From positions 1-24,450 of IMG/VR virus record IMGVR_UViG_3300018476_000043: DNA of 24,450 nt. The stretch is one strand, 5' to 3'. The notes below the pieces were generated by a model, which worked only from the letters and a program-made list of their open reading frames with translations, searched no databases and was not told where the DNA came from. This document shows positions 4,018 through 23,729 of the stretch, piece after piece; the stretch's first letter is position 1, and each line of letters begins with the position of its first letter. The position numbers and the translations under genes were made by a program. Source of the stretch: a virus.

Positions 4018-4027
4018 GCTGTTCCTA

Positions 4028-9911: not shown

Positions 9912-9985
9912 GGCGGGGATGCAGCACAGAGCGCGATGGCCAGGGCGTCCGCCGGCAAGGCGTCGTCCTTCGCGTTGTGGTTCAC
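9839..9985 (-). CDS. Possible small protein, 48 aa, overlapping the Fis-type gene
   Basis: A GTG at 9985 overlaps the preceding stop (GTGA) and has a very good GGAGGT ribosome site seven bases upstream. The frame runs 48 codons and overlaps the first 24 codons of the Fis-type gene in another frame. Its first half looks coding-like (KDDALPADALAIALCAA), while the second half (CGRRAIVCGPSPTWRG) looks like an alternate-frame product. It may exist mainly to couple translation into the Fis gene. No family is recognised. Confidence 0.4.
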   Translation of the reverse strand: MNHNAKDDALPADALAIALCAASPPWCGRRAIVCGPSPTWRGAPAERS

Positions 9986-10670: not shown

Positions 10671-11392
10671 GCTGCCCCCTGCTTGGCGTCTCGGGCCGGG
10701 TGGCAATCGACGACCAGGACCGGCAGCTCCCCGCCGGTCGGTAGCGGCACGTGCTGCTCGATGAGCCGGCGCACGTAGGGCGCCCCGAGGTAGCCCGCGA
10801 GCTCCAATTTAGTGAGCCCGCTCGTGGCAAATGTTGCTCGGCCCGCGGCGTAGCGCTGGTCGATCACGTACTGGAGCGACCCCAGATCTCGCGCCTCCTC
10901 CGTGCCGAGGTCGTCGAGGTACAGGTGCCGCGCTCCGATGGCGGACCTCATGAGCGGCGCCCAGCCTTCCCCGAGGGCGTGGTGCCGCTCGGCCGCGCCG
11001 AGCTCGCGGGCGTGGACCCAGACGCCCGGGTAGCGCACGCCGATCCAGCGGGCGGCGCTCGTCTTGCCGATGCCGGTCGGCCCCAGGAGGAGCCCGCAGG
11101 GCGTGTCGTTGGCGCGGAGCTGGCTGGCCAGGTGGGGGTGGCGCACGCGCGACCAGAGCCTCTCGCGCTGGCGGAGCGCGTCGGCTCGGCGCTCGAGCCG
11201 CGCCGCGGCCACCCGCTGGTCGGTGTCGTTGGCGCTCGGCACGCGCTGGCCGATGACCACCCCGCCCAGAACCGTCTGGGCGCTCATCGAGAGCGTGGGC
11301 AGGGACGCCGCCACGCTCGAGAGCGGGCTGCGCTCGGGACGGGCCACGCTCGGGACTTGCTCGAGCAATCGATCGATGTCTTGCGCGTTCAT
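10667..11392 (-). CDS. DnaC-like AAA+ helicase loader, 241 aa
   Basis: The AAA+ core is clear: Walker A GPTGIGKT at 104-111, Walker B LYLDDLG at 157-163, a sensor-1-like FATSGLT at 188-194, and YVRRLIE at 206-212, where DnaC/IstB proteins carry the arginine finger. The first ~100 residues, helical and Arg-rich at 60-85, would be the helicase-binding region. In the DnaC/lambda P role such proteins load the host replicative helicase at the phage origin. ATG at 11392 overlaps the stop of the initiator gene (ATGA), matching the O-P order of lambdoid phages. An IstB-type transposition helper is excluded by the context, which has no transposase. Confidence 0.85.
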   Translation of the reverse strand: MNAQDIDRLLEQVPSVARPERSPLSSVAASLPTLSMSAQTVLGGVVIGQRVPSANDTDQRVAAARLERRADALRQRERLWSRVRHPHLASQLRANDTPCGLLLGPTGIGKTSAARWIGVRYPGVWVHARELGAAERHHALGEGWAPLMRSAIGARHLYLDDLGTEEARDLGSLQYVIDQRYAAGRATFATSGLTKLELAGYLGAPYVRRLIEQHVPLPTGGELPVLVVDCHPARDAKQGAA

Positions 11393-12198
11393 GCTTCCTT
11401 GCCTTCCAGGCTCTCGAATCCGGTAAACCCCGCGTTGCCTTGCTTGCTGCCGTGCTGCCGAAGCGAAGCGACGATGCCAGGGCTGGCGCGGGCGAGCTGG
11501 TTGGCGCGGTCCTTGGCGCGCTCGCAGAGCCACGGGTGGAGCTTCTCGACGCCGCCCCGGGGCAGCCCGGCGCCCCAGTAGTGCTTCCAGGTCGAGATCG
11601 CCTGCTCACGCGACACGGCGGCCATGAGGGCCAGGTCGAGGTACGCCTTCGGCGGGGTCTCGCTCGGCATCGTGAGGGTGCGCACTCCGCTGTCGGAGAC
11701 CACCCGGATGAGCCCCGGCACGGGCGGTGCCTCGGGCGCGCGATCCGGATCAGCACTGCTAGGCTGAGCTAGGATAGGATCAGCTAGGATAGGAGTGACC
11801 GTTGGTGACGCGGGCGGCCCACTGGTGACCGTTGGTGACTCTTCGTCACGAAACGTGACACCCGCGGCTCTGCGGGCTCGGCTCTCGAGCTTGCGCACCC
11901 GGTCGCTCTGCCGAGCGTTCTGCGCCTGGACGTAGTTCGGCATCACCAGCTGGGTCCCTCGCAGGGTCAGCACTCCGCGCTCGAGTAGCCGGGGCAGGCC
12001 TACCTCGACGATCGCCAAGGGCACCCCGGTCACGAGAGCCACGTCCGTCGCCGGCTCCTCGATGCCATCGAGCACCCCGGAGCGGTCGAGCTTCCGGATC
12101 AGAAACACGAGGACCGCCTGCCCCTCGAACCCGAGGCGCAGCCAGGTGCTGGTGTCCCGGGTGTAGAGGCGCACGTAGCTCTCGTCCTCAAAGTTCAT
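11389..12198 (-). CDS. Winged-helix replication initiator (lambda O-like role), 269 aa
   Basis: Residues ~1-95 look like a phage replication winged helix: YVRLYTRDTSTWLRLG, a helix VLVFLIRKLDRSG, then VEVGLPRLLERGVLTLRG and a beta wing. A basic segment (96-112) follows. Residues ~113-165 form a Pro/Ser/Thr linker with internal repeats (SPTVT twice, ILADPILA) encoded by DNA direct repeats. The C-terminal ~85 residues are helical (YLDLALMAAVSREQ, WLCERAKDRANQLAR), suited to contacting the loader or helicase. The order initiator, then DnaC-like loader, with iterons inside the first gene, parallels lambda O-P with ori in O. ATG at 12198 overlaps the upstream stop. Confidence 0.75.
   Translation of the reverse strand: MNFEDESYVRLYTRDTSTWLRLGFEGQAVLVFLIRKLDRSGVLDGIEEPATDVALVTGVPLAIVEVGLPRLLERGVLTLRGTQLVMPNYVQAQNARQSDRVRKLESRARRAAGVTFRDEESPTVTSGPPASPTVTPILADPILAQPSSADPDRAPEAPPVPGLIRVVSDSGVRTLTMPSETPPKAYLDLALMAAVSREQAISTWKHYWGAGLPRGGVEKLHPWLCERAKDRANQLARASPGIVASLRQHGSKQGNAGFTGFESLEGKEA
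11758..11859. repeat. Iteron cluster inside the initiator gene; candidate replication origin
   Basis: Two copies of AGCTAGGATAGGA lie at 11767-11779 and 11782-11794 (15-bp period), with a partial GCTAGG at 11758. Two perfect copies of GTGACCGTTGGTGAC lie at 11795-11809 and 11825-11839 (30-bp period). An inverted repeat GTCACG-AAA-CGTGAC follows at 11845-11859. The first block is clearly poorer in GC than its surroundings. Position inside the initiator gene and multiple short repeats fit an iteron origin as in lambda. The repeats keep the reading frame, so protein-level repetition is the alternative. Confidence 0.6.
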
Positions 12199-12443
12199 CC
12201 CTGGCCGGCCCCCACGTGCTCCGGAGGGCTGGCAATGACGCGGCCCACCGCGTAGCGAAGGGCCTTCTCTCGGCCGAGCTTCATGCGCAGCCGGCGCAGG
12301 GCCGGGTCCTCCCGCATCCAGCCGACGATCTTGTCGAGGTCCGCCACTTCCTCCTCGGTCAGGCGCAGGTGGATCGTGGTGGTGTCGGGCCGATCCTCTT
12401 GCCGAGGATCGTCGGGCTTTCGTCGCTTGGCTGGCTTGCTCAT
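12195..12443 (-). CDS. Small ribbon-helix-helix-like protein, 82 aa
   Basis: After a basic, charged N-terminus (about 1-20), TTTIHLRLTEEEVADLDKIV has the strand-then-helix pattern of ribbon-helix-helix (Arc/CopG-type) repressors: a short alternating strand, TEEE as helix cap, then a helix. A second helix contains GREKALRYAVGRVI. These dimers bind DNA through the strand. The call is by pattern only. ATG at 12443 overlaps the previous stop and the gene directly precedes the initiator, where a copy-control or early-regulation role would make sense. Confidence 0.55.
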   Translation of the reverse strand: MSKPAKRRKPDDPRQEDRPDTTTIHLRLTEEEVADLDKIVGWMREDPALRRLRMKLGREKALRYAVGRVIASPPEHVGAGQG

Positions 12444-12658
12444 GGTTCTCCTCCGGCACCAGGCCGGCAGTGGCGATGCGTCTTGGGCGGCTTCTGCGTG
12501 AGGGTCGAGGCCATCACCACGCGCTCGGCTCCGCAGTCACACAGGCATCTCCAGCGGGCGCCGTGGCCGATGCTCGGGGCGGGCCCTGTGACGGTGACGA
12601 GGCCGAAGCGCTGGCCCGTGAGGTCCGGGGTGGTCTGAGAGCGGAGAGGTCGGCTCAC
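12440..12658 (-). CDS. Small phage zinc-binding protein of the 'LTGQRFG' type, 72 aa
   Basis: The start is GTG 12658, overlapping the DUF1643 stop (GTGA). The opening DLTGQRFGLVTVTG, a central RWRCLCDCGAERVV and a final Cys (HRHC) form a pattern often found in phage proteins and at the N-terminus of phage HNH/AP2-type proteins: a short beta motif and a CxCxCG zinc ribbon. Here only this domain is present, with no HNH or AP2 part. It probably binds nucleic acid or is a remnant of a larger homing-type protein. Confidence 0.65.
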   Translation of the reverse strand: MSRPLRSQTTPDLTGQRFGLVTVTGPAPSIGHGARWRCLCDCGAERVVMASTLTQKPPKTHRHCRPGAGGEP

Positions 12659-13146
12659 GCGAACACTCCCGGCGCGAACCACACGAAGGGCTTCACGTCT
12701 TTGCGTAGGTAGAGCGGGTGGCTGGGGTGCCCGCCCTTGGTCAGCTTCAGCGCGTGGACCTCCACGCACGCGGCCCGCAGCCGTTGCCGCAAGGTGAGCG
12801 AGTCCCGCTCCCGGATGTTGGCGCCCCAGGCAGCCACGAACAGATCGGCCATGCCCGCCCAGTAGAGGACCGCATCGAGGTTGCCGGGCCCGACCGGATC
12901 GTCCACCTGCCAGAGCCCCTTCGGGTCGGTGGAGCGGAGCGCGTAGGCATTGACCTTCACGTACCGGGAGAAGCCCCAGGCCTGCGCGTAGCCGACCTCT
13001 CGCCGCACCGTGGCATCGTCCACGAAGGCGTCGGCCGTGCTCGGGTTGAGACCGCAGAACACGACCAGCTTGCCGGCGTCCGCCCACTGCCGGGTGAGCG
13101 TGGTCCGGTAGCGACCGCACTCACTGATGCAGGCGTCGCGCTTCAC
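12655..13146 (-). CDS. DUF1643-family protein, 163 aa
   Basis: All hallmarks of DUF1643 are readable in order: YRTTLTRQW (13-21), LNPSTAD (33-39), DDATVRR (43-49), WGFSRYVKVNAYALRSTDP (57-75), AAWGAN (105-110) and LTKGGHPSHPLYL (135-147). Length is typical for the family. DUF1643 proteins are common in phages and bacterial accessory regions. Their biochemical role is not established, although the conserved Asn, Asp, His and Gly suggest an enzyme active site. The start is GTG 13146 in a GTGA overlap. The family call is strong; the function is open. Confidence 0.85.
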   Translation of the reverse strand: MKRDACISECGRYRTTLTRQWADAGKLVVFCGLNPSTADAFVDDATVRREVGYAQAWGFSRYVKVNAYALRSTDPKGLWQVDDPVGPGNLDAVLYWAGMADLFVAAWGANIRERDSLTLRQRLRAACVEVHALKLTKGGHPSHPLYLRKDVKPFVWFAPGVFA

Positions 13147-13688
13147 GCTGCCGCCTCTTTGCTGGACGCGCCGGTGAGCGCGTCGATCTCCCGCTTCATC
13201 CAGGCCCCGAATGCCCCCACGTTGGGCGCCTTGTGCCAGGCGGCTCTCACCTCGATGAGGGTCTCCAGGCGAATCTCACCCCGCCGGTCGCGCGAGCGAG
13301 TGAGGTTCGCAGCCACCCGCGCCTGCTCGTCCCGCACCACGGTCCCGGGCGGGATGCCCTTGCGGGCGCGCTCCTCGCTCCGGTCGTTGTAGACCTTCTG
13401 CCGCTCGGCGCAGGTCGAGCAGGTGAGCATCCACTTGCCGCTCGGGTGCTTGCGATCCTGGTCGCGACCGCAGGCGCATTGTCCGGCGGCGTGGTGCCGC
13501 TGCTTGGCGAGCTTCTTCTTGCGGGCGCAGTACAGGTTGTGAGCCTTGCGCCGGGCGGCCTCTGCGGTCCGGGCCTCGACGATGACCCAGTCCGCGTCGC
13601 CTGGGCCGTCGATCTCGGTGACGCTCTCGAGCGCGCCCGCGTCGGTGAAGACGACCCGCCAGTAGCGGGGGGAGGACGCGCCGCTCAC
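13143..13688 (-). CDS. Hypothetical zinc-finger protein, 181 aa
   Basis: GTG start at 13688 (GTGA overlap). The N-terminal ~55 residues are alpha/beta (YWRVVFTDAG, DWVIVEARTAEAARRKAHNL). A very basic stretch (RKKKLAKQRHH, 56-66) then precedes a four-Cys site: C71, C73, C90 and C93 (QCACG, LTCSTC). The C-terminal half is helical and charged. A basic patch next to a zinc knuckle points to nucleic-acid binding. No family is recognised beyond that. Confidence 0.65.
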   Translation of the reverse strand: MSGASSPRYWRVVFTDAGALESVTEIDGPGDADWVIVEARTAEAARRKAHNLYCARKKKLAKQRHHAAGQCACGRDQDRKHPSGKWMLTCSTCAERQKVYNDRSEERARKGIPPGTVVRDEQARVAANLTRSRDRRGEIRLETLIEVRAAWHKAPNVGAFGAWMKREIDALTGASSKEAAA

Positions 13689-14371
13689 GTCTCCCCCTCC
13701 GACGTATCGCCCCGTTTACCGCCACCGAGCGGGGCCACCTCGGCATCACGGGGAGCAGTGGACCCCGGCTGTCCGATTGCTGCATCGGCATCAGCAGTGC
13801 GACTTGGCGACGGGACAAGTAGGGGAAACCCGTCTGCGCCTCGCACGGCGCGGTGAATGGGGCACGGGGTGCCGAGCAGCTGCTCGTACTCGCAGCCGCG
13901 GCAGGGCTCACCGTTGTTGGGGTTCGTCCAGCGGTAACCGTCCCGCTCGACGATGGTGTCTTCGGTCGTCTTGCACTCGCAGTCCACGCGCTCGGCGGGC
14001 TCGACGGGTTGCCAGAAGTGACGGGCTCCGCCGGGGTGGTGGTTGTCCTCCTCGAAGCCCTGAAGGCGGAACGCCTCTCGCGCGTGCCGGACATCGCGAT
14101 CTGTCGGGCGGCTGCCGAAGCGGGAGACCGACATGTGCCACTGCAGGATGTTCCGCCCGCTGCCGTCGGGGGCTTCGGCGAGACTGAGCGCGCTGATGAC
14201 GCTCACTGCCCCGCGTCGCCACATGCTCGCGGCGTGCGTCCCGCTGGCGAGAGTGCGCGGGGTGGGCAGCTGCATCCAGCCAGGCCCGGACGGGCGGCGT
14301 TCGGATAGTCGCCCGCCGGGGAGGTCAGCTCCCGGCGTGCTCGACAGAGGCCCCTGACCGGGCCGGCTCAT
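13685..14371 (-). CDS. Hypothetical phage protein with NHHPG motif and zinc cluster, 228 aa
   Basis: The core (about 50-125) has MWRRGAVSVISAL, QWHMSVSRFGSRPT and EEDNHHPGGARHFWQP, a set of conserved-looking residues that I associate with an unassigned phage family in which a His-Pro-Gly segment precedes a Phe-Trp. Further Cys/His pairs at 131/133, 157/160 and 170/173 (CEC, CRGC, CPIH) likely hold zinc. The first 45 residues and last 50 are Pro/Gly/Ser-rich and probably disordered. ATG at 14371 overlaps the integrase stop (ATGA), so it is the first gene co-translated after integrase. Function unknown. Confidence 0.65.
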   Translation of the reverse strand: MSRPGQGPLSSTPGADLPGGRLSERRPSGPGWMQLPTPRTLASGTHAASMWRRGAVSVISALSLAEAPDGSGRNILQWHMSVSRFGSRPTDRDVRHAREAFRLQGFEEDNHHPGGARHFWQPVEPAERVDCECKTTEDTIVERDGYRWTNPNNGEPCRGCEYEQLLGTPCPIHRAVRGADGFPLLVPSPSRTADADAAIGQPGSTAPRDAEVAPLGGGKRGDTSEGET

Positions 14372-16113
14372 TTGCTGCCCTCCCCATCGCGCTTGCGACG
14401 GGCAGCGTCCAGGCTCGACACGGCCGGCGCGGTCCGGTGCAGCTGCCGCCGGGCGAGCTCGGCCGTGCAGGCCAGCACCACGTCCCAGCGCTGGACCTTG
14501 GTGGCCTCTTCGACAGCGAAGACCAGGGCCCGGAGCGCCGCGTCCTCGGCAGTCTCCGGGAGAGCGGCTGCGAGGGCCTGCTCGACGGGGGAGTCGGACG
14601 CATGTAGGATAGGCGCCCCCGCGGCAGTGGAGCCGCCCGCCCCGGCCGTCTCAGCCCCCGCTGCTCTTTGGCCCGAAGTCGAAAAACCCGCTGGGCCAAG
14701 GGGTCCCTCCGGGGGTATTGAGGGGGTGTAGGTAACCGCCTGAGCGGGGTTTACGGGGTGTGAGTCGTCCCAGGGCAAATCGCACCGGTTTGTGAGAAGC
14801 GGGGTTTTGCTCGGCATTTGTACCACGTTGGCCCGAGCTTGGCCCGAGTCGTGGCTGGCGTCGTGACCCGCCGTCGAGAGCTCGCTGGCTCCCTTCATCC
14901 CGAGCGCGATGGCCATCGGGGCCCACCAGTGCAGGCCCTGCTTGCGGGCGTGCCGCACCCCGCGGTCGTACTTCTCCAGCACCTTCACGCTCTCGTGCCC
15001 GGACCGGTCCATGATCCACCGGTCGGGGAAGCCCAAGGCCCGGGCGAGGGTCACGAAGCTGGCCCGGAAGTCGTGGGTGGTGAACGGCCGCTCGCCCTCG
15101 GGGGTCTCATAGAGCTCCGGGCGGGTCAGCCCCGCCGCCTTCAGGTTCGGGTGGAGCTGGTGGTAGACGGTCATCCGCGTGAAGGCCTTGCCGGCAGGCG
15201 GCACGAACACCAGCACTGCGTCCGGGATCTGCAGGCGCCGCAGGCGCAGGGCCTCGAGCACATCAGGCTCGAGGTCCCAGTAGCGGGCCTTCTTGGTTTT
15301 GGTCCAGGCCTTGGCGACGCGGATCTTCCCCCGCTCGAGGTCGAGCGCTTCCCAGGTGTACTGGAGCACCTCCGAGATGCGGCCCCCGTGACGGTCCAGC
15401 CAGGCGTAGAGGAAGCGCTCCTCGAAGGTGATCCCGACGGCGGCCAGGAGCTGCTCATCCTCGTCGGGGTAGAACAGCTGGAACTGGTCGGTGTCCGTCT
15501 GCTTCGGCACCGAGACGTGGGGCACGTGCTCACAGAGCCGGAGCGGCTCGAGCGCGATGCGCATCACGTAGGAGAGTTCGCGGCAGTAGCGCATGCGCAC
15601 GTTCTGCTTGATGCCCTTCGGTATCAGGCGCTTGGCCTCGTCCACGTCGTCGCGGGTGATCGCATCGAAGGTCTTATCCCCGAGCACGGGGAAGAAGCAC
15701 GCCAGCTGGGTCCGTCGGGCGTTGCGCCCCTGCTCGGTGCGGTAGCGAATGTCGTCGGGGTGCAGCTCGTGGAGCGTGCCGTCGCAGAGGTCCTGGACCA
15801 CGCTGCGGAACGTGACGACTTTCTTCCGCGCTGCTGGCTCCGGCGAGAGCGCCTCCACCATGGCCTCGAGCGCGCGGAAGCCCCGCTCGGCTCTCGTGGC
15901 GCCGGCTTCCTCGAGGATGACCCGGGCCTCGGCATGCTTGCCGACTTCGCTCAGGCGCTTGGCCATCGCCTGCAGCCGGGCGAGGCGGTCCTTCGCTTGC
16001 GGCTCCTGGTCGTGCGGGACGTCGAGCGCGATCCACTCGTCGCGGCCGAGGTTCTCCCCGAAGCGGATGCGGCCGCCCCAGCCCTCGGCCTTTTTGCGGA
16101 GCCGGCTCGCCAT
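14368..16113 (-). CDS. int: Tyrosine-recombinase integrase with long C-terminal extension, 581 aa
   Basis: The catalytic set is complete: Arg245 (GGRISEVL), a Lys in the TKTKKARYW turn (~274-275), His347-x-x-Arg350 (THDFR), His373 (SGHES) and the nucleophile Tyr382 (EKYDRG). An arm/core-binding region precedes it (about 1-200). The core ends near 395 and is followed by ~190 extra residues: a Ser/Pro/Gly/Thr-rich linker (~410-505), then a helical segment (~505-565, SPVEQALAAALPETAED and beyond). Typical phage integrases end near 350-420. The linker DNA carries repeats that may be attP. ATG at 16113 shares one base with the preceding TAA. It would integrate and, with an excisionase, excise the phage. 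Confidence 0.9.
   Translation of the reverse strand: MASRLRKKAEGWGGRIRFGENLGRDEWIALDVPHDQEPQAKDRLARLQAMAKRLSEVGKHAEARVILEEAGATRAERGFRALEAMVEALSPEPAARKKVVTFRSVVQDLCDGTLHELHPDDIRYRTEQGRNARRTQLACFFPVLGDKTFDAITRDDVDEAKRLIPKGIKQNVRMRYCRELSYVMRIALEPLRLCEHVPHVSVPKQTDTDQFQLFYPDEDEQLLAAVGITFEERFLYAWLDRHGGRISEVLQYTWEALDLERGKIRVAKAWTKTKKARYWDLEPDVLEALRLRRLQIPDAVLVFVPPAGKAFTRMTVYHQLHPNLKAAGLTRPELYETPEGERPFTTHDFRASFVTLARALGFPDRWIMDRSGHESVKVLEKYDRGVRHARKQGLHWWAPMAIALGMKGASELSTAGHDASHDSGQARANVVQMPSKTPLLTNRCDLPWDDSHPVNPAQAVTYTPSIPPEGPLGPAGFSTSGQRAAGAETAGAGGSTAAGAPILHASDSPVEQALAAALPETAEDAALRALVFAVEEATKVQRWDVVLACTAELARRQLHRTAPAVSSLDAARRKRDGEGSK
14668..14848. other. Repeat-bearing segment within int; candidate attP/arm sites
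   Basis: TTGGCCCGA occurs at 14668-14676, 14828-14836 and 14839-14847; the last two are an 11-bp-spaced tandem of TTGGCCCGAG. A near copy, TTGGCCCAG, is inverted at 14691-14699. AGCGGGGTTT occurs twice between them (14743-14752, 14798-14807). The segment encodes the low-complexity linker of integrase. Clustered short direct and inverted repeats around a ~125-bp centre resemble an attachment site with arm-type sites, and myxophage Mx8 is known to carry attP inside its integrase gene. No core can be named. Confidence 0.4.
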
Positions 16114-16370
16114 TACCTGGCCTCCGGAGGCGCGGCCTTCAGCGCTTCGATACCAGCCTCGGTCACGATGAAGACCGTGTCTCCGCCGCTCAATTCGCCC
16201 GGCTTGCGTCCGACGCCCATCAAGCCCCGTGCGCAGAGCGCCTGGAGGGTCTCCCAGTCGGAGTGGCCCTCGCTGGCGCAGAAGTGATTGCGGTACGGCT
16301 TGCGCCCTGGCTTCGGGTATCCGAGCGAGTGATCGATCACGTGGCGCTCTTTGGCGGTCAGGCTCGCCAT
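16113..16370 (-). CDS. Small conserved-type phage protein, 85 aa
   Basis: Start at ATG 16370, sharing one base with the preceding TAA (TAATG). It opens LTAKERHVIDHSLGY and continues PYRNHFCASEGHSDWETLQA, CARGLM and ELSGGDTVFIVTEAGIEAL. This is a recognisable type of small phage protein in which a helical start, an RNHFxA segment and a C-terminal winged-helix-like 'VTEAGIEAL' end recur. It may be a small wHTH fold, but the function is unassigned. It sits directly before integrase and may be co-regulated with it. Confidence 0.7.
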   Translation of the reverse strand: MASLTAKERHVIDHSLGYPKPGRKPYRNHFCASEGHSDWETLQALCARGLMGVGRKPGELSGGDTVFIVTEAGIEALKAAPPEAR

Positions 16371-16741
16371 TACTTCACGCTCCGCAGCCGCCGTTTGACC
16401 CGCTCGATGGCCTCGGCCTCGGGAGATTCGGGCGGCAGCTGGACGGGCGGGCACTTGACCACCGTGGACGGCTTGCGGCCGACGCGCTCCAGCTCTTCGG
16501 CGATGGCGTCGGTGGTGAGCAGGAACCGGTCGCCCACGATCTTCGCCATCGGATCATGGGGGTCGGCGCCCAGCCGTCGACGCACCGCCGCGCAGTGCCG
16601 CCGCGCGCCCAGGATCGGGCTGCGCTTCTGGTCGCGCCACTCGTCGGAGGGGTGGGCCGCTGCGGCCATCTCTTCGCGGACGACCTTCCGCAAGAGGGTC
16701 TCCAGCCACATCTCGAACGGGCCGCTCATGGTGGCGCTCAT
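16370..16741 (-). CDS. Putative DNA-binding protein / excisionase candidate, 123 aa
   Basis: ATG at 16741 overlaps the preceding stop (ATGA); a second ATG at 16729 is possible. After a helical N-terminus (FEMWLETLLRKVVREEMAAA), residues ~45-90 (ARRHCAAVRRRLGADP, then IVGDRFLLTTDAIAEELERVG) have the look of a small winged helix-turn-helix with a 'GDRFLLT' wing, as in excisionase/MerR-like phage proteins. The C-terminus is basic (ERVKRRLRSVK). Its position two genes before integrase supports an excisionase role, but the assignment is tentative. Confidence 0.5.
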   Translation of the reverse strand: MSATMSGPFEMWLETLLRKVVREEMAAAAHPSDEWRDQKRSPILGARRHCAAVRRRLGADPHDPMAKIVGDRFLLTTDAIAEELERVGRKPSTVVKCPPVQLPPESPEAEAIERVKRRLRSVK

Positions 16742-16995
16742 TGTGCCACCCGCCCCGCTGCGTGGAGCCGGATAGCCCGGATCCGCCAGTGGGCGAGGGC
16801 CACCACCGGGCGCGTCGCGAGCATCATCTGCTCGAGCGAGGCCACGGCGGAAACGAGGTCAACTAGCGGGGCGGCGCGAAATCGGCCAACAAACCCGAGA
16901 AAGTTGTTTGGGGGGGGGGTTACTCCATGGTAGCGGACGAAATTCAGTCCGCTTTCGCGTAGTTGCCCCTGTTTCGCAACGCTTGTCGAGGTCAC
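16738..16995 (-). CDS. Possible small leader gene of the early operon, 30-85 aa, start uncertain
   Basis: An open frame from GTG 16995 ends in a TGA overlapping the next ATG. Third-position GC is poor over the first ~45 codons, which include a C10 tract (16910-16919 as G on the plus strand), and strong only after about codon 49. The likely real start is therefore GTG 16845 or ATG 16827, giving 30-36 residues (SLEQMMLATRPVVALAHWRI). The upstream part would be leader. The short product is basic with no family. Confidence 0.4.
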   Translation of the reverse strand: MTSTSVAKQGQLRESGLNFVRYHGVTPPPNNFLGFVGRFRAAPLVDLVSAVASLEQMMLATRPVVALAHWRIRAIRLHAAGRVAQ

Positions 16996-17155
16996 GTTAA
17001 CTCAGCCCTCCCTGGCGCCGCCCGCTGTGGGCCGCCTTGCTCGGGTGCTCCACATTGGCGCTGCCCCGGACCCGTCGTAGTGCACCGTTTCAACTACGTG
17101 GCGCAAGACTAAAACGCTACACTGGCCGCCACACTGAGTCAGTTTAGTACGCCCG

Positions 17156-17169
17156 TGTAGGCGCCTACA
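17156..17169. promoter_or_regulatory. Perfect 14-bp palindrome, putative operator
   Basis: TGTAGGCGCCTACA is perfectly self-complementary. It covers the expected transcription start just downstream of the leftward -10 candidate. A dimeric regulator such as the adjacent RHH protein is a natural candidate ligand. The sequence was not seen elsewhere in the window. Confidence 0.5.
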
Positions 17170-17197
17170 TGGTGCCACCGGTTGCGGCGAACGTCAA
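17169..17197 (-). promoter_or_regulatory. Leftward early promoter candidate
   Basis: Minus strand TTGACG (17197-17192), 17 bases, CACCAT (17174-17169). The -35 matches consensus at five of six positions; the -10 is weak (three of six). It would drive the early operon that includes integrase and replication genes. The palindrome lies at the expected start point and motif C lies immediately upstream of the -35. Confidence 0.4.
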
Positions 17198-17202
17198 CCC
17201 GG

Positions 17203-17215
17203 TGTACTGACAATG
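17203..17215 (+). promoter_or_regulatory. Operator-like motif, site C
   Basis: TGTACTGACAATG is identical to the left half of the palindrome at 6073-6093 and differs by one base from 4030-4042. It ends 11 bases before the GTG of the RHH regulator and abuts its AAGGG ribosome site, a position suited to autorepression. Unlike site B, its second half is not palindromic. Confidence 0.6.
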
Positions 17216-17226
17216 AAGGGCGCCCA

Positions 17227-17415
17227 GTGAGACGACTGACTACCGACGACCCGTCAACGATCAAAATGCAATTGCGGGTCACCCCGGAGGAGCGCGACGA
17301 GATCCGCGCGCTGGCACGGTATCTCCAGCTCTCGATGAGCGATCTCTTCCGCAAGCTGCTCGCCGAGGAGCGGCGACGGCTGATCGATCAGGGGCTCAGG
17401 CCACCGAGGAAGTGA
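17227..17415 (+). CDS. Ribbon-helix-helix (Arc/CopG-type) regulator, 62 aa
   Basis: The only plus-strand gene. The start is GTG 17227, six bases after a GAAGGG ribosome site; an in-frame TTG at 17182 has no such site. Residues ~10-50 fit a ribbon-helix-helix fold: strand TIKMQLRV, then TPEERDEIRALARYLQLSMS, then DLFRKLLAEERRRL. Such proteins are dimeric repressors that insert the strand in the major groove. Its gene faces the late operon and diverges from the early one, with an operator-like motif overlapping its own leader. It is therefore the best candidate for the switch regulator, although it could serve as an Arc-like modulator rather than the main repressor. Confidence 0.75.
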   Translation: MRRLTTDDPSTIKMQLRVTPEERDEIRALARYLQLSMSDLFRKLLAEERRRLIDQGLRPPRK

Positions 17416-17459
17416 TCGCCCGCGGTCTCGGGTGAACTACGTACGTCTCACCGCCGGGC
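17416..17459. terminator. Possible bidirectional terminator between convergent genes
   Basis: A nested imperfect inverted repeat lies between and over the two convergent stops (17415 and 17437): outer GCCCG (17418-17422) with CGGGC (17455-17459), inner GGTGA (17431-17435) with TCACC (17448-17452). There is no T-tract on either side, so a classic intrinsic terminator is not certain. Confidence 0.3.
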
Positions 17460-17640
17460 GCGCGTCGCGCTTCGGATCTGCTGCTGCTGGTGCAGCACGT
17501 CGCGACGGGGGAGCGGCTGCACCCCGGAGGGCGCCCTCTTTTCGCCAGAGCTTTCTCGCCCGGTCGTAGCCGTCCGCCCCGAGCTCGGCGGCGCTGACCC
17601 CCGTCTCCCAGACGAACCGGAGAAAGCGATACCAGCTCAT
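17437..17640 (-). CDS. Small basic hypothetical protein, 67 aa
   Basis: ATG at 17640 overlaps the endolysin stop (ATGA) and a TAG ends it at 17437. The N-terminus is aromatic (SWYRFLRFVW), followed by GYDRARKLWRKEGAL and a Pro/Ala/Arg-rich disordered tail. No membrane segment is long enough for a holin. It is the last gene of the late operon. No family is recognised; a lysis accessory role is only suggested by position. Confidence 0.6.
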   Translation of the reverse strand: MSWYRFLRFVWETGVSAAELGADGYDRARKLWRKEGALRGAAAPPSRRAAPAAADPKRDARPAVRRT

Positions 17641-18215
17641 GTCGTCTTGCCGGCGAGCGGGGTCAGCCCCGACCACACCCCGGGTAACGGCTGCCCCATG
17701 GGCGTGATGAAGTCGAGGCCCCCTCGGGGTCTCCATCCCGCTCTCACGCCGTCCTGCGAGTTGCCCTCGCAGGTGCTCACCCGATCGCCCCCGACGCCCG
17801 TCACGATGCCGGTGTGGCCCGTGCCGTCGGCACGCACGAAACACATCACGTCTCCGGGCAGCGGCGTCTCGGTGCGCGGGAACTTGGTCCGGAGCCGGGC
17901 GACGCTCGCCTCGGTGCAGCCGATGCCCGCGCCCCGGAGGATGGCGGAGACGAAGGCCGCGCACCAGGGGTTGCCGGGCTGGACCCCGCAGGCCCCGAGC
18001 CAGGCGTCGATCTCCGTGCCCCGGTTGACGCCCTCCTCCCGGAGGCCGACCCATTTCAAGGCGCCCAGCACCACGTCCTGGCGCCACTGGGGCAGGCTCT
18101 CGAGCGCCAGCGCCCAGGCCGTCTTGGGTCCCATCACGCCGTCGGGGTTGAGGCGCTGCCCGTCCGGGCCCACCCGGAGGCGCTGGAAGCCGACCAGGTC
18201 GACCGGGACCATCAT
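17637..18215 (-). CDS. Endolysin-like CHAP/NlpC-type cysteine peptidase, 192 aa
   Basis: Residues ~5-38 (VGFQRLRVGPDG, DGVMGPKTAWAL) resemble the end of a peptidoglycan-binding repeat. The catalytic part then shows Cys85 (NPWCAAFVSAIL), PLPGDVMCF (118-126), His134 (GTGHTGIVTG) and a polar residue near 150-152 (CEGNS), the Cys-His-Asn/Glu set of CHAP/TIGR02594-type amidases or endopeptidases. No signal peptide is present, so release needs a holin. ATG at 18215 overlaps the preceding stop; ATG 18212 is an equal alternative. Its location among spanin-like genes supports host lysis. Confidence 0.8.
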   Translation of the reverse strand: MMVPVDLVGFQRLRVGPDGQRLNPDGVMGPKTAWALALESLPQWRQDVVLGALKWVGLREEGVNRGTEIDAWLGACGVQPGNPWCAAFVSAILRGAGIGCTEASVARLRTKFPRTETPLPGDVMCFVRADGTGHTGIVTGVGGDRVSTCEGNSQDGVRAGWRPRGGLDFITPMGQPLPGVWSGLTPLAGKTT

Positions 18216-18628
18216 AGCCCGATCGCCTGGAGCAGCCCGTCCACCAGCCCCGGGAGCTCGCCCACCAGCTCGGTGGCCTCGGGCCACTGCTTGGCCGCAG
18301 CGCGCGCCGCAGCCCGGGCGGCGATCGCCACGACCGGCAGGAGCACCGCCCACTTGCCGAGGAACCGGGCGACCTTCGCCTTGCGCACCCGCACGCTCGG
18401 ACGGGTGGGAGGCGGCTCGGTGTCGGCCGTCTCGCTGTCGTTGGCGACCCGCAGCGCGGCGAGCTCGTCCCGCATCTCCTCGATGAGACGGTCGCGCGGA
18501 TCGGGCGGGAGCAGGCGCCCCTGCATCGGCACGCCGCCGCTCGGCGGGGTAGCGGTCAGGCGGAACGGCTCCGGCACCAGCGGCCGAGGCGGCAGCGGCG
18601 GCGGTCGGCTGCGCGGATCGTCCGGCAT
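18212..18628 (-). CDS. Single-membrane-segment protein of the lysis cassette, 138 aa
   Basis: ATG at 18628 lies two bases after the lipoprotein stop. The first ~35 residues are Pro/Arg-rich and disordered. A short acidic helix (RDRLIEEMRDELAALR) follows, then a basic stretch (RPSVRVRKAKVARFLGK) and one hydrophobic segment, WAVLLPVVAIAARAAA, near residues 92-107. A C-terminal amphipathic helix ends the protein. It lies directly before the endolysin, where holins or their regulators are usual, but one segment with a long soluble N-terminus is not a standard holin. Call it a membrane protein of unknown role. Confidence 0.6.
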   Translation of the reverse strand: MPDDPRSRPPPLPPRPLVPEPFRLTATPPSGGVPMQGRLLPPDPRDRLIEEMRDELAALRVANDSETADTEPPPTRPSVRVRKAKVARFLGKWAVLLPVVAIAARAAARAAAKQWPEATELVGELPGLVDGLLQAIGL

Positions 18629-18630
18629 CT

Positions 18631-18867
18631 CTACGGGGCTCCCGCGTCGGGCGTAGTCACCGGCGAGGCCGGAGGGGGGAGAGCGGCGGGTGCCTCGCAC
18701 GCGTTCAATCGGCCGACGAGATCTTCCAAGTCGTAGGGCGTGAGCTGCCCGGGATCGGCAGGCAAAAATGCCACAGCTTCCGCCCTGCACTGTACGAGCG
18801 CAGGCGTGCAGGCGGTGCTCACAACCACAGTCCCACCGAGTGCAACTAGCCAGGGGAGCTTGCGCAT
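18631..18867 (-). CDS. Small lipoprotein, o-spanin candidate, 78 aa
   Basis: Starting at ATG 18867, the N-terminus is a classic lipoprotein signal: basic RK, hydrophobic LPWLVALGGTVVV and a lipobox-like STAC with Cys20 as the lipidation site. The mature part is ~59 residues and ends Pro/Ala-rich (LPPPASPVTTPDAGAP), as in phage o-spanins. It follows an i-spanin-like gene. The position -3 Ser is not ideal for a lipobox. If correct it anchors in the outer membrane and, with the inner-membrane partner, disrupts the envelope after endolysin action. This would imply a Gram-negative host. Confidence 0.6.
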   Translation of the reverse strand: MRKLPWLVALGGTVVVSTACTPALVQCRAEAVAFLPADPGQLTPYDLEDLVGRLNACEAPAALPPPASPVTTPDAGAP

Positions 18868-18940
18868 GCACTTCAAGCTACGGGCGGCCCCCCAGGCCAA
18901 CCACGGCAGAATGACCCAACTCCACCCCTACGGGTGACGG

Positions 18941-19057
18941 CTACGGGTGAGGGGTCAGGCTCACGCCGGGCGGGTCTGCGGCGAGCCGTTCCAGCGGGAA
19001 AGCCAAGAGATCCTCCTGCTCCAGCTCGAGCCGCGTCCTCTGTAGCACTCCCGTCAC
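18941..19057 (-). CDS. Possible small protein, 38 aa, in the lysis cassette
   Basis: A GTG at 19057 overlaps the stop of the i-spanin-like gene (GTGA). The frame runs 38 codons with good third-position GC and the product (VLQRTRLELEQEDLLAFPLE, then a Pro-rich end) is plausible. The same frame is open far upstream across the i-spanin-like gene, so it may be only the tail of an alternate frame. No family. The 73 bases between it and the lipoprotein hold a weak CACCC-CTAC-GGGTG hairpin (18923-18936) and nothing else seen. Confidence 0.35.
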   Translation of the reverse strand: MTGVLQRTRLELEQEDLLAFPLERLAADPPGVSLTPHP

Positions 19058-19338
19058 GGCTTCGTTTCGTATGGCGTCTCGGTATCGCTCACCAGCTCTC
19101 TCAATGTGGGCCTCGGTCCGCGCAAGAAAGCATCGAGCAGCCTCCTCTGCTTCTCGTTCCACGCTGCGGTGTGCAGCCTCTCGAGATCGAAACGTTTCTG
19201 CTGCTCTCGCAGAAGCGCCTCTTCCAAGTACCGCGTCCTTCTCCAGAGCTGAAAGGTGAGCTTGATCCACCACAAGCCACCCGAGAGCGCGACGAAGAGC
19301 AGATCGCGGTCGGTGATCGGTGCGTTCGGTCCGTTCAT
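19054..19338 (-). CDS. Membrane-anchored coiled-coil protein, i-spanin candidate, 94 aa
   Basis: A short polar N-terminus is followed by one membrane segment (residues ~12-32, LLFVALSGGLWWIKLTFQLW), then a charged coiled coil (about 33-75, RTRYLEEALLREQQKRFDLE) and a polar tail. This N-in, C-out layout with a periplasmic coiled coil is that of Rz-type i-spanins, and a lipoprotein gene lies two ORFs on. No strong ribosome site precedes ATG 19338. One sits before ATG 19348 in another frame that is open for 135 codons over the same bases, so the reading frame should be confirmed. Codon quality favours this one. Confidence 0.55.
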   Translation of the reverse strand: MNGPNAPITDRDLLFVALSGGLWWIKLTFQLWRRTRYLEEALLREQQKRFDLERLHTAAWNEKQRRLLDAFLRGPRPTLRELVSDTETPYETKP

Positions 19339-19381
19339 TCGTCGGCATCGCTATTCTCTCCCATGGGTGTTTGACCAACTC

Positions 19382-20620
19382 TCAGGTGCGGCCGATGCCC
19401 GCCGAGGCGTACATGAAGGCATCGCGGGTCATGAACAGCCTGCCAGCGGCCACGGAAAAGGCCAGGACGGTGATGTCCTTGACGGTGGTGGGGCCGACCC
19501 ACGTCACAAAATCCGTGCTGGCGTAGAGCGCCGTCGTGCCGTTGTCGAGCGGGGCCACGATCACCATCAGCCCCGTCGACTTGCAGATCATCAGGCGCGG
19601 CTGGCTCACGAAGCTGGCCCCCGTCGGCGACTCGATGGTCGTGCCGGAGGTCCAGGTGGAGCCGTCGACCGAGAGAGCGGTGCGGATCCTGGCTCCCGCG
19701 TTGCAGCGCATGATGTGATAGACCGCGTCTCCCACGCCATCGACGAGCGGCGCTCCCGCTAGCGACCCTGGCTCCTCCGCAGTCGCCGCGCTCGGAGGGG
19801 AGAAGGATCCGGTAAAGCTCGTCCCGTCGCCGTCGGTCGACAGCGAGAAGCGGGGCTCGATGCCGGAGTTTCCGAGGGACACGATGTACCCTTGATTCGC
19901 GGTCGCCCCTCCGAGCACGGCGAGACCCCGCACCCCAGCAAATCCGCTGGCGGCGCTCGCCCACACCGTTGCAGCGTCTACGGATCGCGAGACGGCCCCG
20001 CTGTCATCGCCGCCGGCCAGGAATGTATCCCCTCCATTGGCCAGCGCGTTGGGAGGGGCGTACACGAGGTAGAAGGGAGTTGCCGTCGCGATGCCCGCCC
20101 CTCCCGCAGACCACGTGCCGCCGGCGTTGTCGCTGTAGCTGTTGCCATTGCCGCCCACGCCGATGACTACGACGCGCGTGCCGTCCGTGGCTGCCTCTCG
20201 GACGAGCGACGTGATGGACGCGATCGATCCCTGCACGTCGACCTCGGGGCCATCATAGGCCAGGATCGCATCGCTCGCGTCGGCCTTCACCAAGAGCGCG
20301 CCCGCGGTGGGGTCTCCGATGCCGTCGACCATCGTGGCCGCCATGGACTCGTCGGTGTCGGTCATCGTGGCCTGGAGCACCAGGAGATGCAGGGCTGCGA
20401 TCTGGAGCGCGCGATTGACCCCAGCGACGTGCTGGTTGTAGCCCGTGGTCATCTGATTCACGAGGTAGTTGACGTGCTGCGCCGCGGCCACCGTGCCACG
20501 GATGAAGCCGTTGGCCTGGGTCGCCGGATCCACCTTGGTGGGAGTGCCGATGTCCGGGCCGGCGGAGTAATCGTCGTTGGAGGCCCAGTCGGGGACGAGC
20601 GCGGGAAGTACTAGCGGCAT
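19382..20620 (-). CDS. Tail-fibre-like protein with Asp-box beta-propeller repeats, 412 aa
   Basis: ATG at 20620 follows an AGGAG ribosome site. Residues ~1-85 are a likely attachment region: a Pro/Asp start, then a helix with AAQHVNYLVNQMTTGYNQHV. From ~145 on, the chain is Gly/Ser/Thr/Ala-rich beta structure with four Asp-box-like motifs: SYSDNAGGTW (161-170), LSTDGDGTSF (260-269), LSVDGSTW (316-323) and YASTDFVTW (366-374). These mark a BNR/sialidase-type propeller that may bind or cut host surface glycan. Place directly after the baseplate wedge genes supports a receptor-binding fibre. No enzyme residues can be named. Confidence 0.7.
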   Translation of the reverse strand: MPLVLPALVPDWASNDDYSAGPDIGTPTKVDPATQANGFIRGTVAAAQHVNYLVNQMTTGYNQHVAGVNRALQIAALHLLVLQATMTDTDESMAATMVDGIGDPTAGALLVKADASDAILAYDGPEVDVQGSIASITSLVREAATDGTRVVVIGVGGNGNSYSDNAGGTWSAGGAGIATATPFYLVYAPPNALANGGDTFLAGGDDSGAVSRSVDAATVWASAASGFAGVRGLAVLGGATANQGYIVSLGNSGIEPRFSLSTDGDGTSFTGSFSPPSAATAEEPGSLAGAPLVDGVGDAVYHIMRCNAGARIRTALSVDGSTWTSGTTIESPTGASFVSQPRLMICKSTGLMVIVAPLDNGTTALYASTDFVTWVGPTTVKDITVLAFSVAAGRLFMTRDAFMYASAGIGRT

Positions 20621-20648
20621 GGGAGCTCCTGGTTGTGTGCGGGCGCTT

Positions 20649-21317
20649 TCATAGGATGATCACCGTTCCCCACTCCTCGACGTCGCTCCAGAGATCGCCC
20701 CAGAGGAACAGATCGGCGCTGTCGGAGTACAGAAACTGCAGGCCCACCCCGGCGGCTCGGGTATCGGGCAAGATCTCCGCGACCATGGCGACGCCGTTGG
20801 CATCGATCGGCTGGAGCGCCGTGAGGTGCAGGGTGGCGTTGCCGACCGCGGTCAGCACGTAGTCGCCCTCCCCGAGCAGCAGATTCAGCACGGCCAAGAG
20901 ATCACTCGCCCTGCCGCGGCTCACGTTGGCCAGGGCGCGTGCCTCGATGAGGATCCGGTAGTCCTCCGTGTCGAACCCGTGCCGAGGCTGACCGACGAGC
21001 TTGCCCAGCACTTTCAACCGTGTGAGGTCCGCGTTCTCCAGCGTGCGGGATTCCAGGATGTTCCAGAAGTTGTCCTCGAGGGTCTGCAGCTCCCGGATGA
21101 AGGCGAGCAGCACCCACGCCACGTTGGGCTTGCCCCAGAAGGGCGGCGCCAGCTTGCGCGCGGAGACCTCCTCGTGGTCGCGGATGTACTGCAGCGGCCC
21201 GCTCGGGGTGGCGCCCGCGTGCACGAACGTGCCGACCTCAAACTCGATGAGCTCGGTGCCGTCGGCGTCGCCCTCGGTCGAGAGCGCGGTGTCGATCGCG
21301 GTCGTGCCCTCGGCCAT
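20649..21317 (-). CDS. Baseplate/tail protein, DUF2612-like (P2 gpI-type role), 222 aa
   Basis: The central block reads FIRELQTLEDNFWNILESRTLENADLTRL..., then VLGKLVGQPR, DTEDYRILIEARALANVSRG and SDLLAVLNLLLGEG, the usual order in DUF2612 phage proteins: 'length/loop' helix, LGxxVGQPR, and an RxLIxAR...N segment. C-terminal ~60 residues are beta-like. In contractile phages this gene follows baseplate J and links wedge to fibre, as gpI does in P2. The start ATG 21317 lies four bases after the J stop. Quoted motifs are by eye, and the gpI equivalence rests on gene order. Confidence 0.8.
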   Translation of the reverse strand: MAEGTTAIDTALSTEGDADGTELIEFEVGTFVHAGATPSGPLQYIRDHEEVSARKLAPPFWGKPNVAWVLLAFIRELQTLEDNFWNILESRTLENADLTRLKVLGKLVGQPRHGFDTEDYRILIEARALANVSRGRASDLLAVLNLLLGEGDYVLTAVGNATLHLTALQPIDANGVAMVAEILPDTRAAGVGLQFLYSDSADLFLWGDLWSDVEEWGTVIIL

Positions 21318-21321
21318 GGCG

Positions 21322-22476
21322 CTAGCTCACATCCCCGGTGCAAGTGATGTCCGACTCGTCGAGCAAATATATGACACTCTGCAGCGCAGGCAGATCGCTC
21401 GTGCCCCCGTTCACCGTGAAGCTCACGTAGTCGTCCACCCCGGGCACGCTGAACACGCTGCCCGCCAGCTTGTGGAAGGTCACCTCCCGGCCAACCCTGG
21501 TGGGCATGGCCGCCAGGATGGCGTCCTTCACGTCGTCGATGGCCACGCCGGAGGCGGACTCGATGTTGACCGCGACGGTGATGCTGGTGGCCGTGGCCCG
21601 GTCAAAGAACTTGATGACCGGGCCGAGCTCCGCGTCCTGCGCCGTGCCGGACTCGGCGCCCTGCGGGAGGATGCCCTCGGCGCCGTGGTCGTGGATGACC
21701 TGCGCGATCTCGTCGTCGTCGGCCGCCGCGGGCGAGCCATCCCAGATGATCGCTCGAATGTTGTGGGGGCCGATGCCGTCGGCGTCCGTCACGTTGGAGA
21801 CGTTCTCGAACACCTCGGCCGAGAGCACGCCGTCGAGCAAGACGAGCTTGGCCCGGATGGCTCCGCGGGTGCGGGACCCGCCGATGGAGACCGCGCTCTC
21901 GCGACGGATGCGGAGCGCCGGGATCGACTCGATATCCTCCCCGGGATCCGCGGCCAAGGGATTGGTCACGGAATTCCAGCCCGCGACCGGGGTGGCGATG
22001 ACCGTGATGGTGCCCGCCTCGGCGATGGCCTCGGCGCCTGGGAACTCCGACTCGAACACGGCCGAGTAGTTGCCCGCCGTGGTGCTCACCACCTCGTCCC
22101 TGTTGAGCCATCTATTGGTGGGCTCATCGATCACGTGGGCCGCGAGATCTCCCGGGGCGTAGGTCTGCGACGCGTCGAGGTTGACCGTGACCGTGACCAG
22201 GCCGTGCTGCTCGCCGCGCCGGGGCACGCCGGTGAGACGGGCCAGCGCCACGAAGCGATCGTCGCTGGCGTTGTCGACGTCGAACGCGTGGTAGCACTCG
22301 AGCGCCAGGGCCTCGAGCTGCTCGATGTGATCCGCGTCTAGATTGGCGACATTCCCCAACACCGTCCGCTCGGTGAGCGTGAGCTTGGCGCTGATCTTCT
22401 CGCGCAGGAACTCTTGGATGCTGGTGAGCACCACGTCGAGCGTTCGAGGTTCATAGCCGGTTGACGTGATGGGCAT
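21322..22476 (-). CDS. Baseplate J-like wedge protein, 384 aa
   Basis: Length and layout fit the Baseplate_J family: a helical N-terminus (LDVVLTSIQEFLREKISAKL), the domain with ADHIEQLEALALECYHAFDV and ASDDRFVALARLTGVPR (about 46-85), a beta domain, then PALRIRRESAVSIGGSRTRG (185-204) and a C-terminal beta/alpha domain with HDHGAEGILPQGAESG (around 262-277), a signature also seen in P2 gpJ and Mu gp47. It forms the wedge that triggers sheath contraction. ATG 22476 has an AAGGA ribosome site. Confidence 0.9.
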   Translation of the reverse strand: MPITSTGYEPRTLDVVLTSIQEFLREKISAKLTLTERTVLGNVANLDADHIEQLEALALECYHAFDVDNASDDRFVALARLTGVPRRGEQHGLVTVTVNLDASQTYAPGDLAAHVIDEPTNRWLNRDEVVSTTAGNYSAVFESEFPGAEAIAEAGTITVIATPVAGWNSVTNPLAADPGEDIESIPALRIRRESAVSIGGSRTRGAIRAKLVLLDGVLSAEVFENVSNVTDADGIGPHNIRAIIWDGSPAAADDDEIAQVIHDHGAEGILPQGAESGTAQDAELGPVIKFFDRATATSITVAVNIESASGVAIDDVKDAILAAMPTRVGREVTFHKLAGSVFSVPGVDDYVSFTVNGGTSDLPALQSVIYLLDESDITCTGDVS

Positions 22477-22485
22477 GGCGTTCCT

Positions 22486-22842
22486 TCAAGCGATCGCGAA
22501 AGCGACTTCATCCGACGCGCTCTCGCCGTCCTCACAGGTTACCCGAAATCGCACGGTCAGCTCGCGCGTCGTGCGCTCGAGTTGCACCGATAGCTCATCG
22601 ACCGAGACCACCCCGTCGGTGTTGAGGAGGAACTCCCGGAAGATCTGGGTGATGACCCTGAAGTCGGGGCCCTTCACTAAAATGGTCCCGAGCATGGGCA
22701 GGCCCGCGTCCGGGTCCCACGAGATGGTGCCCGTCCAGATCATCGCGCCGGCTTGGATCTGCTGCAAGGCCATCGCGGCGCCGCGGGTCAGCACGATCTC
22801 CCGACCGTCGTCCGAGAGCTGGAGGTCACCGATCACGGGCAT
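22486..22842 (-). CDS. gp25/gpW-like baseplate wedge protein, 118 aa
   Basis: A small alpha/beta protein: VIGDLQLSDDGREIVLTRG, a helix with QQIQAGAMIWTGT, a DPDAGLPMLG segment and REFLLNTDGVVSVDELSVQL, then two closing strands. Size and order (before baseplate J, after the spike) match the gp25/gpW or DUF2634-like wedge group, which joins sheath to baseplate. The ATG at 22842 shares one base with the spike stop (TAATG). The exact sub-family cannot be told by eye. Confidence 0.75.
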   Translation of the reverse strand: MPVIGDLQLSDDGREIVLTRGAAMALQQIQAGAMIWTGTISWDPDAGLPMLGTILVKGPDFRVITQIFREFLLNTDGVVSVDELSVQLERTTRELTVRFRVTCEDGESASDEVAFAIA

Positions 22843-23408
22843 TAGCGTGCCTTCACTTTCGAGGCCGCGACCGGGCCGAGCGAGACGGCGGGCACCACTG
22901 GTGGTGGGACCACTCCGGGAAACGGAATCGGCGGGCTCGGTGTGCCGGTCGCAGCGGTCGCGTGCGTATGGTTGTCGAAAGCGTATTGGATCTTATCGAG
23001 CGCCGTTTGCACGAGGTTGGCCAGTGCCACGAATTGCACCGCCTGCCCGGCGCGCGCTACGACCGGAATGCACACCGCGTGCAGGCCGTGGCGACGGAGC
23101 ACCTCCGGTTGCTCGACGGATCCGGTGTCGAACCATTTGGAAAAGCTCTCCTCGGCAAACACGAGCAGGCAGGTATCCCCCGCGGCCCACGCCCCTGGCC
23201 AGAGCACGGGCACATCTCCCAAGGGCGGCACCGTCACGAACTCTCCGTCGGTGTTCTCGAGCTGGACTGCGAGGGTCACCTCTGCGGTCTGCTCACCCTC
23301 ATCGTAAGAGCGGATCTCCCCCACCATCGCCGTGTGCACCGAGCGCAGGCGAGCGGCCAGGATGGTGTCGAACACCTGGCCCCAGGCAGGGTTGCGAGGG
23401 TCAGCCAT
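22842..23408 (-). CDS. Gp138-type baseplate spike/puncturing protein, 188 aa
   Basis: Residues ~23-118 match the N-terminal OB-like domain of the Gp138 family: VHTAMVGEIRSYDEGEQTAE, VPPLGDVPVLWPG, a GDTCLLVFAEESFSKWFDTG segment and RRHGLHAVCIPVV. NHTHA (146-150) supplies the His-x-His seen at the tip of P2 gpV/phi92 gp138 spikes, where it binds iron. A Pro/Val-rich C-terminus ends the chain. The trimer would sit at the tail tip and pierce the outer membrane. The ATG 23408 shares one base with the preceding stop (TGATG). Confidence 0.85.
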   Translation of the reverse strand: MADPRNPAWGQVFDTILAARLRSVHTAMVGEIRSYDEGEQTAEVTLAVQLENTDGEFVTVPPLGDVPVLWPGAWAAGDTCLLVFAEESFSKWFDTGSVEQPEVLRRHGLHAVCIPVVARAGQAVQFVALANLVQTALDKIQYAFDNHTHATAATGTPSPPIPFPGVVPPPVVPAVSLGPVAASKVKAR

Positions 23409-23722: not shown

Positions 23723-23729
23723 GCCTGCC

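Follow-up and report, generated by a model that had tools for sequence, protein, structure and literature searches.

A small RHH protein as the probable repressor of type-specific repeated sites in a virus record and its relatives

A 62-aa RHH protein encoded in this virus record probably acts as a phage repressor on the motif TGTACTGACA at three places, namely its own leader by the int promoter, the promoter of a small gene and the promoter of an exonuclease gene. Copies of the motif lie at each of these places, one of them overlaps a near-consensus promoter, and in related phages the motif changes together with the type of RHH protein. From this pattern we infer that the protein binds and represses there and regulates its own synthesis. 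The window, i.e. the whole stretch of 24,450 bases analysed here (~68% G+C), carries baseplate, CHAP-endolysin and integrase genes, all of which run leftward. The following features of the window are relevant:

2890-4017, minus strand: PD-(D/E)XK exonuclease gene under promoter P3 (PDDEXK_1, E 8.5e-10; phrog_69 exonuclease, E 1.6e-18)
4028-4055, minus strand: promoter P3, TTGACC-16-TACAAT, before the exonuclease gene
4030-4042, plus strand: candidate operator site 3, TGTACTGACATTG, within the P3 spacer and -10
6071-6098, minus strand: possible weak promoter P2, TGGCTT-16-TACAGT, read from the sequence and missed by the promoter scan
6073-6093, plus strand: candidate operator site 2, dyad TGTACTGACA-A-TGTCAGCACA, overlapping a weak leftward -10
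14368-16113, minus strand: tyrosine integrase gene in the leftward operon (Pfam Phage_integrase, E 3.4e-14; PHROG integrase)
17169-17197, minus strand: candidate leftward promoter of the operon with int; the same hexamers occur in relative L002
17203-17215, plus strand: candidate operator site 1, TGTACTGACAATG, located within the RHH leader, upstream of the leftward -35; type-specific in relatives
17227-17415, plus strand: RHH regulator gene, 62 aa, GTG start (Pfam NikA-like; PHROG Arc-like repressor)

An RHH gene with a comparable control region was found in four IMG/VR contigs:

L002: 3300046709_000165, record G001
L004/L010: 3300046714_000549, record G002
L009: 3300046737_000236, record G005
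L021, divergent: 3300048898_000130, record G004, 42,992 bases

A scan with an RHH alignment recovered the same four relatives (L002, L004, L009 and L021) and nothing further, and alignments of the left-operon protein, integrase, exonuclease and RHH protein yielded no contig beyond the known ones. L016 (G006), a fifth relative via its baseplate gene, shows no RHH match. L005, obtained by a pattern match, has neither an integrase match nor such a control region and was taken as a chance hit. In L014, homologues of window 1736-2893 and 2890-4113 are located at 11127-12559 on the strand opposite to its own baseplate genes, unlike in the window. A megablast search of positions 10000-24450 against 50,697 named phage records gave no match. 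By tblastn against named phage records, the window integrase found a single record (Virus Rctr16k, 32.5%), the RHH protein two weak matches (E 0.05 and E 2), and the baseplate protein 491 records, every one below 60% identity. Two scans of bacterial genome contigs displayed no relatives of the integrase or the baseplate protein.

The GTG of the RHH gene at 17227 aligns with the starts in the four relatives, which confirms 17226 as the end of the control region drawn in the earlier note. The window protein scores 31.1 bits with the Pfam model NikA-like (cut-off 27) and 14.4 bits with RHH_1, which is under the cut-off of 20.5. NikA-like is the best Pfam model and matches five of five members of the group at E up to 1. 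The PHROG Arc-like repressor matches the window protein at E 2.2e-4 and is the top PHROG match for four of the five proteins of the group scanned; among PDB sequences, the antitoxin MazE7 gives the best match (E 0.00098). An AlphaFold monomer model (five-sequence input, mean pLDDT 74) displays helices at 20-32 and 37-54 and no strand. Among the Foldseek matches listed for this model (50 of 99), RHH proteins are frequent, including TacA, AtaR, ParG, NikA, AmrZ and CopG, and none of those listed has E <=0.001.

RHH proteins of the group are 62-90 aa long. Identity is 90% between window and L004, 91% between L002 and L009, and 44-47% between groups (45% for L002 versus window, 47% for G004 versus window). 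The presumed DNA-reading strand has one sequence per RHH group in the alignment: IKMQLRV in the window and L004, RQMKFLV in L002 and L009, and VVIQSRV in L021. In Arc, the bases are contacted by alternating strand residues; by analogy, the presumed recognition triplets would be K.Q.R, Q.K.L and V.Q.R, one for each motif type described below.

Every 14-mer of 16996-17226 was compared with the remaining window at up to 2 mismatches, which gave many G+C-rich chance matches and, in addition, TGTACTGACAATG with copies at 6073 and 4030. A regulon motif, announced but left unspelled in the earlier note, could thus be recovered as TGTACTGACAWTG at 17203, 6073 and 4030, with three exact copies in the window versus none in 100 shuffles (type A). 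A start codon follows each copy: the RHH GTG at 17227, the ATG of a 57-aa frame at 6056, and the exonuclease ATG at 4017. The halves of the site 2 dyad are 11 bp apart, and sites 1 and 3 each hold one good dyad half. All four exact matches of the half-site fall inside the three sites; at up to 2 mismatches, 19 half-sites versus 21.4 expected correspond to chance level. A word with 2-3 mismatches at window 3399 recurs in L014 within the exonuclease coding sequence and was set aside.

P3 is the sole sigma-70-like site in the window with at least 9 of 12 consensus bases (spacers 15-18). Chance alone would give 2.55 such sites (0.15 with at least 10 of 12 bases), so that this count is not unusual in itself. 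The copy at 4030 fills the P3 spacer and touches the -10, and the promoter at site 2 has a poor -35. Corresponding counts are 2 versus 1.9 expected in L002 and 4 versus 8.05 in G004. The near-consensus promoter of the window sits on a motif site (1 of 1), as do both of L002 (2 of 2), these being its sites 2 and 3, and one of four in G004, where the other three lie off RHH words.

Co-variation of motif and RHH type is most evident in L002, in which the integrase is 92% and the left-operon protein (16370-16741) 96% identical to the window. At the same three places that hold type A in the window, L002 carries TGTACA-N5-TGTAY. This type B motif, ATGTACANNNTNTGTAY, has four overlapping matches in L002 at up to 1 mismatch, all of them exact (none in 100 shuffles), at 8459-8475 in the RHH leader, 19495-19513 and 20798-20814. 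The latter two precede the same downstream genes as the window sites. All four TGTACA words of L002 (0.5 expected) are located within type B sites, and the half-sites are again 11 bp apart. Type B is absent from the window, as is type A from L002 at up to 1 mismatch. A type B consensus built from the leaders of L002 and L009 only finds L002 sites 2 and 3 with 1-2 mismatches, and 60 simulated sequences gave no match at up to 3 mismatches. With 2 mismatches allowed, the type A word is further met at L002 19496 and L009 9211, which are the own operators of these phages, and at G004 39629; type B at 4 mismatches matches G002 7646.

In the divergent relative L021 (G004), both the RHH protein and the motif are of a third type. 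Type C, CGTAGTACAAT, is present in two copies in the 42,992 bases of G004 (leader and 23576); the other four records lack it even with 1 mismatch allowed. The copy at 23576 lies at the -10 of CTGGCA-17-TACAAT, and the unit downstream reaches an exonuclease VIII homologue at 25274-26227 (phrog_412, E 2e-31). At both type C places (L021 9849-9859, minus strand; L102 3576-3596, plus strand) TACAAT starts 15 bases before an ATG, and at this short distance both G004 messages may be nearly leaderless. L102 of G004 also holds four large consecutive frames of 1092, 738, 463 and 1024 aa at 8656-18615 (minus strand); the two tested, of 1092 and 1024 aa, gave no PHROG match at E 0.001.

Only the distant sites count as independent evidence, given the physical linkage between leader motif and RHH gene. 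Such sites could be compared in three phages (window, L002 and G004); a distant site lies upstream of recombination genes in all three, and it matches the resident RHH type in each. L009 and G002, being fragments without the exonuclease region, hold no distant site. The RHH protein therefore most likely binds and represses at these places, judging from the joint change of motif and RHH type at unlinked sites. The proposal of an RHH regulator working through the regulon motif is well supported in this respect, since the co-variation includes sites 11-13 kb away. The RHH pairing is at odds with the identities of the backbone: for the wedge protein, identity to the window is 81% in L002, 82% in L004 and 87% in L009, and 16930-17109 matches L009 in 162 of 182 positions. 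Hence, the RHH gene and site 1 seem to be mobile between backgrounds. Window 16992-17240 and L004 9237-9485 share 249 identical bases, with flanking genes about 80-84% identical; the L004 contig ends exactly there, and the identity may represent either a recent exchange or an assembly joint.

Based on this dataset, we hypothesize a mechanism in which pairs of RHH dimers would bind half-sites about one helical turn apart. At site 3, where a near-consensus sigma-70 promoter lies, the protein would occupy the spacer and the -10 and thereby exclude host RNA polymerase, and at site 2 it would cover the weaker -10. Bound at site 1 beside its own start, it would limit its own synthesis. Site 1 would also lie near -47 if the leftward start is at ~17162, so that the int-operon promoter may be either repressed or activated. 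Joint diversification of the RHH gene and its operators may have given rise to at least three specificity types, in the manner of heteroimmune repressors.

Whether the same protein also maintains lysogeny is a separate matter. The earlier note had seen no classical CI/Cro pair in the window and had considered a separate repressor elsewhere; five records, one of them 43 kb long, were searched for a CI-type repressor, which fragments may miss. HTH_3 exceeded the cut-off of 23 in none of the five (one match of 13.7 bits, in G004) and was detected in 14 of 14 control genomes, and S24 had no match in the five and was detected in 13 of 14 control genomes. Pfam scans of 122 frames (68 of G004, 54 of window and L002) displayed no CI/Cro-type or other phage-repressor family besides RHH in these three records, and no antirepressor family. 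The frames were picked by length and codon-position G+C, with a few manual additions, and included only a minority of the structural frames of window and L002. Sigma-70, HTH_8 (Fis) and HTH_23 domains were recovered by the same scans. In the window, the gene at 7691-9130 (minus strand) joins sigma-70 regions 2 and 4 (region 4 under the cut-off) to a C-terminal Fis-type HTH_8 domain, and a separate HTH_8 protein is encoded just upstream at 9561-9911 (minus strand); the two are possibly a phage sigma factor or late activators.

We rate it as just short of an even chance that the RHH protein keeps the prophage silent. The presence of an integrase and the difference in specificity types between close phages make such an immunity role plausible, and the odds are only moderate because another repressor may be missed in fragments. 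The RHH protein could instead be an Arc- or Cro-like early down-regulator of the recombination genes and of itself, with another repressor, unrecognised or unsequenced, holding lysogeny, which we regard as possible but clearly short of even. In P22, RHH proteins occur alongside an HTH repressor. The motif sites do sit on early recombination genes, and the window is a fragment; on the other hand, no CI-type protein exceeded the threshold in five records including one of 43 kb. Diversification of specificity between close phages, moreover, is typical for immunity repressors and speaks against a mere early down-regulator.

That the motifs serve a phage sigma factor or activator as promoter elements, and are not RHH sites, appears improbable. 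The sigma-70 regions 2 and 4 and the Fis-type domain of gene 7691-9130, the overlap of motifs with -10 elements, and the position of TACAAT 15 bases before the ATG at both L021 sites would fit this idea. However, window and L002 have the same site 3 hexamers (TTGAC-16-TACAAT) but different spacer motifs, and motif types sort with RHH types. Between these two phages the sigma-like protein shares 69% identity, which weakens the idea to some extent.

The earlier note had placed its emphasis on a palindrome. The control region described there is real, the palindrome not being its key part; that it is the only sizeable non-coding region holds provided that the 68-aa frame 17437-17640 is coding. The palindrome TGTAGGCGCCTACA exists at 17156-17169, as do additional inverted repeats (ACTGAGTCAGT at 17133-17143, and CTACACTGGC/GCCCGTGTAG). 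The leftward TTGACG-17-CACCAT exists as well, with the -35 at 17192-17197 and the -10 at 17169-17174 on the minus strand. It matches 8 of 12 bases of the sigma-70 consensus, has a poor -10 and was chosen by neither promoter scan; the leftward transcript would start at ~17162, inside the palindrome. One further feature is needed here:

17110-17191, no strand assigned: block with 69 of 82 bases identical to L002 despite different RHH types, holding the palindrome and the leftward -10

It is very unlikely that this palindrome is the RHH operator and the centre of the switch. It does lie at the predicted start of the int-operon promoter and is unchanged in L004, which has the RHH type of the window. 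Yet it differs by one base in L002 (TGTAGGCGCCCACA) despite the different RHH type, reads TACAGGCGCCTACA in L009, whose RHH type is that of L002, and is absent in L021. No further copy is found in the window at up to 3 mismatches, the distant sites included. Perfect palindromes of at least 14 bp number 2 in the window versus 3.7 expected (200 simulated sequences), with a chance of about 0.027 for one in 231 bp of the same composition; taken merely as a palindrome, TGTAGGCGCCTACA is evidence of little weight. As it does not track RHH type and decays in relatives, and as such palindromes are expected by chance, it is probably not an RHH operator. It may instead belong to the leftward start region or be bound by another factor. 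The weight it had been given does not stand, the palindrome being nearly unchanged across differing RHH types and degraded or lost elsewhere.

As an RNA element the leader was rejected. No Rfam match at gathering score was obtained in 16700-17700, and folding was no better than that of shuffles for the window (z 0.07), L002 (z -0.53) and L021 (z -0.10), and weakly better for L009 (z -1.49, 16 of 200 shuffles equally good). The first left-operon frame (16738-16995, minus strand) contains a run of 10 G at 16910-16919, possibly a slippage tract; the run has 13 G in L002, and since it is longer by exactly one codon the frame stays open.

Highly improbable is a role of the RHH protein as a relaxosome, partition (ParB-III/ParG-like) or antitoxin protein, with the motif as oriT, centromere or autoregulatory site, since NikA-like as best Pfam model of five of five members, MazE7 as best PDB match and the RHH adapters described as pairing with ParM or ParA in plasmid prophages (PMC8026635) are opposed by the Pfam scans, in which 68 frames from G004 and 54 from window and L002 matched no family of relaxases, ParA/ParM or toxins, by a downstream neighbour of the RHH gene on the opposite strand, by motif sites at gene starts spread across 13 kb, and by the integrase.

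A repressor with repeated sites at early promoters has known counterparts, of which F55 of the archaeal virus SSV1 appears to be the nearest in function and Arc/Mnt of P22 the nearest in bacteria, as far as sequence can tell. SSV1 F55 is described as an RHH protein of 55 aa whose 11-nt site recurs at several early promoters as well as at its own transcript, and is held to maintain the carrier state (PMC9608457). The present protein likewise is a small RHH protein with repeated candidate sites (three in the window, three in L002, two in G004) at its own leader and recombination promoters. Unlike SSV1, this is a tailed phage of a bacterium with sigma-70-like promoters; the site sequences are unrelated, and three specificity types occur among the relatives here. 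In SSV1, RadA mediates the release of F55 upon DNA damage.

The P22 proteins Arc and Mnt control the antirepressor gene, next to an HTH repressor (C2). Here too an RHH regulator occurs in a temperate tailed phage, but the motif sites belong to recombination genes and to the control region of int, and the records searched revealed neither an HTH repressor nor an ant gene. The use of both Arc and Mnt for the lysogenic state of P22 is described in PMC10516654, as is YosL of SPbeta, a predicted Arc-type RHH protein that favours lytic growth. For the RHH protein AlgZ, similarity to "repressors" of phiKZ and phiEL is mentioned (PMC3564109). Lambda-type CI/Cro and heteroimmune families share with our phages the divergent control region and the joint change of repressor and operators, and differ in that the regulator here is RHH, with no HTH_3 over the cut-off and no S24 match. 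The difference from NikA/MobC relaxosomes is that no relaxase family was found in an incomplete set of 122 frames from three records. Among the matches listed from openly licensed PMC text, no RHH immunity repressor of a tailed phage besides that of P22 is mentioned.

A bolder reading, somewhat less likely than not, is that in these temperate myovirus-like phages, which would lack a CI-type protein, the RHH protein of 62-90 aa is the immunity repressor, in at least three heteroimmune types (presumed triplets K.Q.R, Q.K.L and V.Q.R), each with matching operators at the RHH/int region and before recombination genes. It would be a tailed-phage counterpart of F55 and would contain a natural RHH recognition code. 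The well-known lysogeny switches are based on helix-turn-helix repressors; an RHH protein in this role in tailed phages would, if the proposal is true, widen the known switch designs. The three protein-operator pairs would then allow testing how an RHH strand reads DNA, and how immunity types originate. RHH type and motif together offer a handle for sorting uncultured temperate phages.
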